In this document: positions 2,894 to 43,768 of the stretch, in pieces
Position numbering within the stretch: position 1 is the stretch's first letter
Layout of the letters: each line of letters begins with the position of its first letter
NCBI GenBank assembly: GCA_022843445.1
Contig: JALHNS010000007.1
Coordinates: 1-48,926, forward strand
Length of the DNA: 48,926 nucleotides
Reading direction: 5' to 3'
Origin: Gemmata sp.
Lineage (GTDB): Bacteria; Planctomycetota; Planctomycetia; Gemmatales; Gemmataceae
Program-made: the position numbers and the translations under genes
Notes under the pieces: model-generated
Seen by the model: only the letters and a program-made list of their open reading frames with translations
What the model was told of the DNA's origin: nothing
The model's database searches: none

Positions 2894-2925
2894 ACCCGCC
2901 GCGTGAGCGAGGGTGTTTTGTTTTC

Positions 2926-3061
2926 GCCCTGAAGGGGCGCTCTTCCTCAGCCCCGGCCACCGGCCGGGGTTGTTGCGTTGAAGGTCTTGCGTCCTGAAGG
3001 GACGCGCTTCGGATGTACCCCGGCCGATGGCCGGGGCTGAGGAAGAGCGCCCCTTCGGGGC
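2926..3061. repeat. Long inverted repeat with nested hairpins
   Basis: Arms at 2926-2970 and 3017-3061 (45 nt each) are reverse complements with two differences. Each arm also contains two smaller hairpins: GCCCT-GAA-GGGGC or GCCCC-TTC-GGGGC, and CCCCGGCC-NNN-GGCCGGGG. It fills the gap between two convergent genes, so bidirectional termination is plausible. The nested structure resembles paired REP-type sequences. The 46-nt centre holds a further small hairpin (GCGTCC..GGGACGC). Confidence 0.85.
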
Positions 3062-3075
3062 TGAAAAAGCGGTCG

Positions 3076-11581: not shown

Positions 11582-11708
11582 TTCACAGGGTGCGCTGCGC
11601 GACCCTGTGCTTTGGGATGTAACCCCTTCGGGGTACAAACCAGTCTTCTGCCTTTACCCCGAAGGGGTTGTATCGCAAAGCACAGGGTCGCGCAGCGTAC
11701 CCTGTGAA
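11582..11708. repeat. Long inverted repeat, 54-nt arms
   Basis: Arms at 11582-11635 and 11655-11708 differ at about four positions and leave a 19-nt loop. Each arm holds two smaller hairpins: CACAGGGT..ACCCTGTG and ACCCC-TTC-GGGGT or its GAA counterpart. It occupies most of the gap between the second VWA gene and the DUF4175-like gene, so transcription through the cluster must cross it. Confidence 0.9.
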
Positions 11709-16604: not shown

Positions 16605-17360
16605 TCACTCGATTCGGTTCAGCAGCCAGACGGTACCGGCGTCGGTGTTCTCGAATTCGGTCGGGCGCGGCTCGGTGCCCGGCGCGGTGGCGACGCGGGC
16701 GCGGTTGCGGTCCAGTTCGTAGATGCCGCGCAGCACGAACGCGGTCGGCTTGCCGTCGCGGTCCAGTTGCGTGAGGTCCACTTCCTTCGGGTTGGCGTCC
16801 GGGCGCAGCACCGCGGTGTAGCGCTTCGCGTCCTTGTCGCCGAACCGGTACTGCCACTCGGAGCCGGTCACGCGGATCGTGACGCCGGGGCGCGCGAGCT
16901 GCGCGCGCTGGCCGTCCGGCCCGATGGTGAGCACGTTCATCTGCCACTCGCCCTGCCAGCGCCCGGGGTCGTCGGTCGGCCCGCGGAGCGCGAAGTACCA
17001 GACGCCGAACCCGACCAGCGCCAACACCGCCGCCACCGCGAGCGCGCGGAACGGCGAGGTTTTGCGAACGGGCGCGGGGGCATCACCTACCCCCCCCGCC
17101 CCCCCCTCGCGGTTTGGAGCCGCGTGCGACGCCGACCCTGCTCCCGCAGTCTCGGCTGCACGCGGCCCGGGAAGGGGGGAGTCGCCGCTCGCTGCGCTCG
17201 CGGGCGCAGAGGGGGTGATTGGTGCTTCGGACGTCGAGCGCAGCGAGGCGTCTGGCTCTGTCTCCCCCTTCCCTTCGTCGCGAACAGCCGAGACTGCGGG
17301 AGCAGGGTCGGCGTCGTTCGCGGCTCCAGACGGCAGGGGGGCCGGGGGGGTAGGTTGCAT
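16605..17360 (-). CDS. TIGR03067-domain membrane protein, palindrome-derived N-terminus
   Basis: 251 residues. Residues 2-92 are Pro/Ala/Gly-rich and are encoded by the inverted repeat at 17085-17355. One membrane helix follows (about 100-120, FRALAVAAVLALVGFGVWYF). The C-terminal domain (WQGEWQMNV, ..VLRGIYELDRNRARVA, RPTEFE) resembles the planctomycete TIGR03067 domain. The start ATG overlaps the DUF58 stop (TAATG), indicating translational coupling, and the stop is 7 nt before the BatA-type start. Its place in the middle of the cluster suggests a dedicated accessory membrane subunit. Function unknown. Confidence 0.75.
   Translation of the reverse strand: MQPTPPAPLPSGAANDADPAPAVSAVRDEGKGETEPDASLRSTSEAPITPSAPASAASGDSPLPGPRAAETAGAGSASHAAPNREGGAGGVGDAPAPVRKTSPFRALAVAAVLALVGFGVWYFALRGPTDDPGRWQGEWQMNVLTIGPDGQRAQLARPGVTIRVTGSEWQYRFGDKDAKRYTAVLRPDANPKEVDLTQLDRDGKPTAFVLRGIYELDRNRARVATAPGTEPRPTEFENTDAGTVWLLNRIE
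17085..17355. repeat. Inverted repeat inserted in frame within a gene
   Basis: Two imperfect arms of roughly 95-130 nt face each other; the core 17128-17158 is a perfect reverse complement of 17285-17315 (31 nt). Both outer ends read ACCTACCCCCCC toward the centre. The whole element is open in the frame of the surrounding gene and begins 1 nt after the start codon. GC-rich homopolymer runs mark both ends. Confidence 0.88.
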
Positions 17361-18250
17361 TACCTTCGCCCCGCTTGCAGCCGGCGCACGAGGTACTCCG
17401 CCAGCGCCGGGCCGAGCGGCTTGTCCGTCAGCAGGCGCACGTAATCGACGCCGCTGTTGTCGCACCCGCGCTGAATGTCCGCGAGGTACTTGTTCACGAT
17501 CCGCAGGTACGCTGGGCGCAGCATGTGGGGCCGCGTCATCAGTTCTTCGTAGCCCTCGAGCCCGATGAAGCGAATGTTGCCGTCCAGCGGGAACTCCACT
17601 TCGTCGCGGTGCAGCACGTGGAACAGCACCACCTCGTGCCCGCGGAACCGCAGGTGCCGGAGGCCCGCGAGCGTCGGTTCGAGGTCCTCGAGGCAGTCCG
17701 AGATCAGCACCACGATCCCGCGCCGGCTCACGCGGTCCGCGACTTCATCGAGCAGCGGCCCTATCGTCGTGCGGTCCTTCGGCTGCGTCTCTTCGAGTGT
17801 CGCCGTGATCGCGTTGATGTGCCCCAACTGGCTGCTCTGCGGCAGTTCGGCCACCCACCCGGTGTTGAACACGCGCAGGCTGACGGTATCCCGTTGCCGA
17901 ATCACGGTGTACGCGAGCGACGCCGCGAGCAGCTTGGCGAACTCGAGCTTGTTCGTCTCGCCGCCGCCGTACCGCATGGAGTTACTGCAATCGAACAGCA
18001 GGTGCAGGGCGAAGTTCGTTTCCTGCTCGTACTGCTTGATGGTGTACCGCTCGCTGCGCCCGTAGCTCTTCCAGTCGATGTGGCGGATGTCGTCGCCGGG
18101 GACGTACTCGCGGTGCTGCACGAACTCGACCGAGAACCCCTTGTAGGGGCTTTTGTGGTCGCCGACGCGCAACCCTTCCACGAGCTGCCGGGCCTTGAGG
18201 CCCAGCGCTTCGGCACGCGCCAGCACGTCGGGGGACAGGTAGTTCGGCAT
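17360..18250 (-). CDS. DUF58 domain protein
   Basis: 296 residues. The DUF58 core is recognisable (FVQHREYVPGDDIRHIDWKSYGRS near residue 45). A VWA-like part follows with an intact DxSxS, D87-C-S89-N-S91, and VLISDCLED. DUF58 proteins almost always sit beside MoxR ATPases and are presumed partners or substrates. The ATG at 18250 begins the conserved N-terminus; the frame upstream runs through the 18259-18344 palindrome. It follows the MoxR gene by 106 nt and overlaps the next start by one base pair pattern TAATG. Confidence 0.92.
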   Translation of the reverse strand: MPNYLSPDVLARAEALGLKARQLVEGLRVGDHKSPYKGFSVEFVQHREYVPGDDIRHIDWKSYGRSERYTIKQYEQETNFALHLLFDCSNSMRYGGGETNKLEFAKLLAASLAYTVIRQRDTVSLRVFNTGWVAELPQSSQLGHINAITATLEETQPKDRTTIGPLLDEVADRVSRRGIVVLISDCLEDLEPTLAGLRHLRFRGHEVVLFHVLHRDEVEFPLDGNIRFIGLEGYEELMTRPHMLRPAYLRIVNKYLADIQRGCDNSGVDYVRLLTDKPLGPALAEYLVRRLQAGRR

Positions 18251-18258
18251 TCCGGTAG

Positions 18259-19531: not shown

Positions 19532-19634
19532 ATCGTTACATGCCTTGCCGCGCGCGGCGCGCACGGACCCGCGAATCGATTTCCGAAAACGGAAACGCGA
19601 GCGGGATGGGGACAAGTGTTGGCTTGTCCGCGTC

Positions 19635-19768
19635 GGCCGCACAGGGCTTCCGCCCTGTGCTACGGTAGGCGACCCGCTCCGCGGGTGCTCAGACAGAAAG
19701 GCGCTCGAATGTCTTTCCGCCCCGGAGGGGCCGGCTATCGTAGCACAGGGCGGAAGCCCTGTGCGGCC
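19635..19768. repeat. REPIN-like inverted repeat with GTAG feet
   Basis: Arms 19635-19664 and 19739-19768 are perfect 30-nt reverse complements. Each arm is itself a hairpin, GCACAGGGC-TTCC-GCCCTGTGC or its complement, with GTAG at the inner foot. The loop contains ACCCGC-TCC-GCGGGT. It lies between the MoxR cluster and the divergent gene at 19786. Confidence 0.88.
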
Positions 19769-19785
19769 CACGCGGAGCGGACACG

Positions 19786-29992: not shown

Positions 29993-30089
29993 GAGTAATG
30001 CGCTCGCTCCGCGAGCGGCCATTGCTGCTCGCAATCACCAAAACGACACTGCACCGCGAATGGTCGCTCGCGGAGCGAGCGACCTACTC
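29993..30089. repeat. REPIN-like inverted repeat, GCTCCGC type
   Basis: Arms 29993-30023 and 30059-30089 (31 nt) are imperfect reverse complements. Each holds a hairpin around TCC or GGA: CGCTCGC-TCC-GCGAGCG and GTCGCTCGC-GGA-GCGAGCGAC. The second arm, read on the minus strand, has GTAG at its foot. It begins 2 nt after the frr stop. Confidence 0.82.
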
Positions 30090-43541: not shown

Positions 43542-43552
43542 GTGCGTCTTCA

Positions 43553-43663
43553 GGGTAGTAGGCACGCTCCGCGTGCCGTGTGCTCGGGCCGCATCAGTAA
43601 ACCAACTGAACGCACGGCTTCTCCGCGCGCTGCGGAACGGCACGCGGAGCGTGCCTACTACCC
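43553..43663. repeat. REPIN-like element, copy 2
   Basis: Perfect 27-nt inverted arms at 43553-43579 and 43637-43663. The inner 25 nt are the same as in 33132-33237. The loop begins GTGCTCGGGCCG where copy 1 has GTGTTCGGGCCG, and CCAACTG recurs in both. It starts 12 nt after a stop codon. Confidence 0.93.
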
Positions 43664-43768
43664 TGCGCGCCCTCACATCTTCCCCGCGGCGCGTTCACCT
43701 TGTTCCGCGGTTCCGCGCGCTCGTACAATGTCCGCTACGTCCCGAGGCGCGAACGGTTCCGCACGCAC

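Follow-up and report, generated by a model that had tools for sequence, protein, structure and literature searches.

The window analysed here, a 48,926-nucleotide stretch of a Gemmata sp. draft genome, carries an operon with the order MoxR-DUF58-TIGR03067-BatA. The TIGR03067 gene (16605..17360, minus strand) encodes a 251-aa protein with its domain at residues 131-237 (16650..16970, minus strand; 60 bits against a cut-off of 40.15) and a probable transmembrane segment at about residues 104-125 (16986..17051, minus strand), placed by eye from the translation. The TAA of the upstream DUF58 gene (17360..18256, minus strand) overlaps the host ATG in the form TAATG. Between this ATG and the membrane segment lies a palindromic element of 271 bp (17085..17355; termini CCTACCCCCC...GGGGGGTAGG), from which about 90 N-terminal codons of the host gene derive. 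An earlier note on this DNA had described a 270-bp inverted repeat with a perfect 31-nt core in each arm, a frame kept open for about 90 codons and the TAATG overlap, and each of these is borne out by the sequence, with no stop from the ATG at 17360-17358 through the element into the TIGR03067 domain. The repeat had been said to begin 1 nt after the start codon; the actual distance from the ATG to the tip at 17355 is two bases (CA), and since other copies often end in GCAACC, the G of the ATG may also be part of the element terminus.

The inverted repeat was recovered both by reading the sequence and by a repeat search of the window. Its tips at 17085..17104 (plus strand) and 17336..17355 (minus strand) are 95% complementary, so that the element has the terminal inverted repeats typical of MITEs, and the left arm (17093..17181, plus strand) is 81% complementary over 89 nt to the right arm (17262..17350, minus strand). 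The 31-nt perfect core was read off at 17127-17157 (plus strand), with its inverted copy at 17286..17316 (minus strand). This core belongs to a second repeat unit, delimited by sequence matches at 17110..17180 (plus strand) with an inverted match at 17264-17331, and further inside there is a 13-nt perfect inverted repeat, CTCGCTGCGCTCG (17188-17200 / 17235-17247), which together with its loop spans 17188..17247. The second unit occurs at 11 further genomic places, three of them at 96-99% identity, and part of these matches are short and distant from the C-rich ends; from this we infer that the window element is one palindrome nested within another. The terminal motif is found twice in the window against an expectation of 0.01. 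When folded as RNA from the host strand, the element reaches -222.6 kcal/mol, compared with a mean of -136.3 for shuffled sequences (z = -15.6), and 0 of 200 shuffles folded as well. Chance or base composition as the source of the palindrome is ruled out by the motif excess, the shuffled folds and the reversed control described below. Apart from this element, a second inverted repeat with 49-nt arms (92% complementary) and the same peptide encoded on both strands lies near the MoxR gene start at 19627-19776, and four more strong inverted repeats, different in sequence, were noted at 2921-3066, 11582-11708, 29993-30089 and 43551-43665; the window thus apparently hosts several palindrome families.

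The N-terminal stretch could in theory remain untranslated, with the protein starting downstream of an ordinary intergenic REP-like repeat, and excerpts of Di Nocera et al. (2013, PMC3733652) do caution that many N-terminal intragenic REPs are perhaps extragenic because of mis-called starts. However, inspection of the translation by eye revealed no in-frame start in the stretch that separates the repeat from the membrane segment, and the DUF58-overlapping ATG is conserved in the 16 other orthologues shown; the downstream start that the earlier note had considered was rejected on these grounds. Moreover, most other copies of the element lie in the middle of conserved proteins, and we regard an untranslated N-terminus as very improbable.

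The element belongs to a dispersed family of palindromic repeats. In its own genome (7.39 Mb in 636 contigs) the terminal motif has 79 matches, compared with a single match for the reversed control, and a BLAST search with the 271-bp element yields 158 matches. For this genome, 40 fetched loci and the window locus were analyzed; 31 of these 41 loci had pairable element ends, yielding 32 elements (one locus contains two overlapping pairs), and the ten loci with unpairable ends were left out of the counts. From G012, a near-complete congener in three contigs, all 33 motif clusters were taken, of which 26 were pairable and seven were left out. Units measure 121-269 bp in the own genome and 121-356 bp overall when G012 is included. 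One G012 locus, L136 (C2:825226-825449), displays clean nesting, with one inverted end pair inside another.

The distance from CCTACC to GGTAGG equals 2 mod 3 in 26 of the 32 own elements and in 24 of the 26 elements of G012. According to gene calls from a codon-bias model trained with the window sequence, the same coding frame is found on both flanks of 23/32 own elements, 22 of which are stop-free, and of 21/26 elements in G012. After exclusion of one overlapping pair (own genome) and one 40-bp pair (G012), intragenic, in-frame and stop-free copies account for 22/31 and 20/25 elements, respectively, and such copies use a single phase in 22/22 and 19/20 cases. Most elements leave only two of the six frames open. 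The corresponding binomial probabilities are 3.5e-8 (own genome) and 5.3e-10 (G012), values that exaggerate the significance because the copies share ancestry. The open frame, the phase and the 3n length together suggest that the inserts are translated; translational bypassing or excision is disfavored, as neither needs a single open phase and a 3n length.

An artefact of assembly or composition in a GC-rich draft might be suspected, given the 636-contig source and several contigs that end near a repeat; the same picture in the three-contig G012 assembly and the 0-1 matches of reversed control patterns reduce the probability of such an artefact to almost nil. In G000, element ends are located about 100 bases or less from the ends of contigs such as C343, C348, C408 and C443. 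It therefore seems that the assembly broke at the repeats and that the number of copies counted is a lower bound.

The host proteins are conserved and diverse. The insert has Pfam matches on both sides, across it or next to it in RNase R, glycerol kinase, aldehyde dehydrogenase, a NifS-like cysteine desulfurase and a SpoU methylase, and Pfam-supported hosts also include RecD2, MutL, SelB, an FAD oxidase, apolipoprotein N-acyltransferase, a PNKP-type ligase, KdtA, RNase H, Fpg and others. Within these proteins the inserts occupy linkers, loops or tails. Many are positioned at domain boundaries, and those in Fpg, the NifS-like protein, RNase R and FGGY_C fall within domains. When Fpg is aligned to MutM chain 1l1t, for which a structure has been solved, the alignment is interrupted between residues 62 and 71, which is the place of the insert.

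Cultured Gemmata relatives exist, and the genus set used for comparison comprised 19 genomes, 17 of which have the DUF58-linked window gene. A site was called filled at a self-complementarity score of at least 22, and the presence calls were made with wide flanking context. By this rule, 12 of the 17 congeners have a strong inverted repeat in the window gene, in the stretch from the ATG to the membrane segment, G005 is below the threshold, G002 has a repeat that looks decayed, and G008, G011 and G017 have no repeat. The repeats differ in sequence among species. The orthologue alignment proposed in the earlier note therefore revealed no shared N-terminus, as the orthologues have palindromes of differing sequence, a decayed palindrome or no palindrome at this place, and simple inheritance of the N-terminus by the orthologues was rejected on this comparison. 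In G005 and G003 the window gene carries the CCTAACCCCCC type or one close to it, and their genomes hold 56 and 17 such motifs, respectively; the window gene of G000 carries the CCTACCCCCCC type, and motifs of the CCTAACCCCCC type are absent (zero) from G000. The content of a site can therefore follow, as judged from these motif counts, the family that is common in the same genome. The G009 window gene shows a frame break (length 1 mod 3), and frame breaks with stops also occur in this genome at waaA (partly masked N) and RNase R (loci L037, L268 and L355). These breaks and masked bases are located inside the inserts, unlike in the sister genome G007; the breaks count against a kept reading frame, but may reflect draft errors in C runs.

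The same pattern was obtained at other sites. Within the genus, recD2 is filled in 10/17, waaA in 7/18, fpg in 5/19 and RNase R in 7/18 genomes; genomes with an unplaceable site were excluded (G011 and G018 for recD2), and G015 was dropped from the RNase R survey because it had no upstream match. Outside the genus, the same rule identified no filled site for recD2 (0/5), waaA (0/12) or fpg (0/11), 0/28 in total, and none for RNase R (0/11). As waaA and recD2 had been selected as hosts shared with G012, their occupancy is inflated, whereas fpg and RNase R were selected otherwise. The score was reached by 2.0% of 949 background windows from the genus and by 0.4% of 488 from outside it. Some of the high-scoring background windows look like elements elsewhere. 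In addition, at the fpg loci L322-L335 a second recurrent inverted-repeat site was observed in eight genus genomes, approximately 600 bp downstream of the insert and near the fpg end.

In hosts common to the own-genome and G012 sets, the inserts lie within 0-9 residues of the same place in six of six cases, and the elements at the same site are not especially alike (ranks 6, 20, 10, 11, 6 and 17 of 22). Both facts would also be expected from one ancestral insertion per site followed by gene conversion with other copies in each genome, and the near-identical window-gene elements of the sisters G007 and G009 point to inheritance over short times. However, unrelated palindromes occupy the same site in recD2 (G005, G013, G008, G014 and G015), fpg (G013) and waaA (G013), and conversion with the C-rich element cannot make them. 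At the single recD2 site, families distinguished by eye as unrelated include a C-rich one, a heptamer-built one (G005 and G013) and a GCGGGGGCGTGAGCCCCC-like one of the GCGGGGG...CCCCC type (G008, G014 and G015). Mapped on a tree of four host proteins, presence requires 7, 5, 4 and 3 changes for waaA, recD2, fpg and the window gene, respectively. These numbers are close to the expectation from shuffled labels, and the window gene needs fewer, three changes being reached in 17 of 300 shuffles. Such concerted evolution is therefore judged unlikely. Excerpts of PMC3767692 leave undecided, for insertion sites of this kind, whether insertions of separate origin converge on hot spots or a single insertion has diverged; for the Gemmata sites we favor the hot-spot reading because palindromes unrelated in sequence occupy the same site.

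A different explanation is that the hairpin is retained because it acts at the RNA level, with a strong mRNA stem, placed at start codons, linkers or domain boundaries, that slows translation and aids folding, membrane insertion or operon dosing, and for which different palindromes are recruited. The very stable fold reported above, the many inserts at domain boundaries and the recurrence of the same structure with different sequences at one site are all consistent with this role. In contrast, the sites are empty by the rule in 14/19 congeners for fpg and 11/18 for waaA, suggesting that an RNA job is not required, and the inserts within the Fpg, NifS-like, RNase R and FGGY_C domains do not fit it either, which leaves a retained RNA function improbable.

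We consider it probable that the window element belongs to a non-autonomous, composite family of palindromes that lives in genes and whose sites are refilled by different families. The element would have inserted just after the start codon of the TIGR03067 membrane protein, adding a Pro/Ala/Gly-rich tail of about 90 residues that would be translated ahead of the membrane segment. Each unit adds a multiple of three bases and keeps one frame open per strand, which would allow the family to live inside genes, and the palindromy would give the same kind of peptide from both open frames. Mobile units of this kind could insert almost anywhere, copies in another phase or in structured parts of proteins would be lost, and the survivors would be those in tails, domain linkers and surface loops. 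Because few sites tolerate inserts, the same sites would be filled repeatedly, probably by whatever palindromes the genome holds, through nested insertion followed by decay. A further, rather doubtful possibility is that palindromes of any sequence dock at set positions of conserved proteins in this genus, with an existing palindrome or its remnant attracting new ones by a structure-recognizing process. If so, the sites would represent replaceable 'cassette loops', the content of which follows the repeat families of the genome with the frame kept, and protein loops would evolve in a sequence-independent, structure-guided manner across unrelated repeat families.

With respect to the mover, the Y1 tyrosine transposase (PF01797) was matched in 16 of the 19 genus genomes. 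G007 has no PF01797 match, yet it contains many element copies, so a RAYT/Y1 transposase has no support as the mover. As a separate observation, G011 and G017, two small congeners (4.8-4.9 Mb), have neither end motif and no Y1 transposase match, and their window-gene, waaA and fpg sites are empty by the rule. No target site duplication was found, and the surveyed sites offered no filled/empty DNA pair with clean junctions. No gene-sized, inward-facing end pair that might mark an autonomous parent with the same ends was noticed among the motif matches in this fragmented genome. Locus-specific GAAG...CTTC flanks were dropped as a sign of common descent, since G012 copies elsewhere often show (G)AA...TTC beside the same ends.

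Among known systems, the closest in kind are the Rickettsia palindromic elements (RPEs; Ogata et al. 2000, 2002, as cited in PMC2229807 and PMC3767692), to which the earlier note had likened the repeat. Excerpts of PMC2229807 and PMC3767692 describe RPEs as dispersed palindromes of ~100-150 bp placed in frame in conserved protein genes, with coding palindromes established in Rickettsia and Wolbachia, and those of PMC3767692 report that orthologues can carry RPEs of different groups close to one position. The likeness holds: the Gemmata family is also dispersed, palindromic and coding, uses a single frame in conserved genes and has different groups near one site. It differs in belonging to another lineage with GC-rich, large genomes, in having most pairable copies in genes, and in that unrelated families fill the same sites anew across a broad species set within the genus; the likeness is one of kind. 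The class of coding palindromes is thus already known, and what is new is that in planctomycetes the copies lie mostly inside genes and that unrelated families refill one and the same site. Coding palindromes are consequently not peculiar to reduced intracellular genomes, and in large planctomycete genomes palindromes appear to supply new protein sequence regularly to core enzymes such as RNase R, Fpg, SelB, MutL and RecD2.

The earlier note had called such an element unexpected in planctomycetes, which does not hold, as excerpts of PMC3733652 already place GTAG repeats in Planctomycetes and Verrucomicrobia, many of them intragenic in O. terrae. The REPs described there (Di Nocera et al. 2013) are 20-40 bp long, lie mainly between genes and have GTAG at their outer foot; GTAG/CGTC-tagged REPs are reported for Planctomycetes, Verrucomicrobia, Cyanobacteria and Chloroflexi, some within ORFs and often in DNA-repair genes, and recB of X. 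campestris and X. oryzae has different REPs at about the same site. In contrast, the Gemmata elements are 121-356 bp long and mostly intragenic, and their ends read CCTACC inwards, an orientation and length that do not fit membership in the GTAG REPs. Among the papers listed in our literature search, none reports a planctomycete case beyond PMC3733652.

Bacterial MITEs with open frames fused to host frames, namely ERIC/RU-1, NEMIS (107 bp) and YPAL, are covered in excerpts of PMC2229807. The Gemmata family resembles them as small inverted-repeat elements with an open frame fused to that of the host. The terminal sequences of ERIC/RU-1, NEMIS and YPAL probably differ from those of the Gemmata family. 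The cyanobacterial small dispersed repeats that Elhai et al. are said to have described in 2008 reportedly contain nested small palindromes and heptamer arrays, and these two features constitute the likeness to the Gemmata family, whose 23-mer terminus occurs in cyanobacteria too.

Among the matches listed, the 23-mer end pattern is present in Planctomycetota, Cyanobacteriota, Chloroflexota, Armatimonadota and others. Matches well inside an ORF, defined by at least 100 codons beyond both sides of the match, make up 22/33 in Planctomycetota versus 8/53 in Cyanobacteriota, and 4/17 in Chloroflexota, 1/12 in Thermodesulfobacteriota and 0/18 in Armatimonadota, again among the matches listed. Since the intragenic share differs by phylum, neither these ends nor GC content simply account for the location inside genes.
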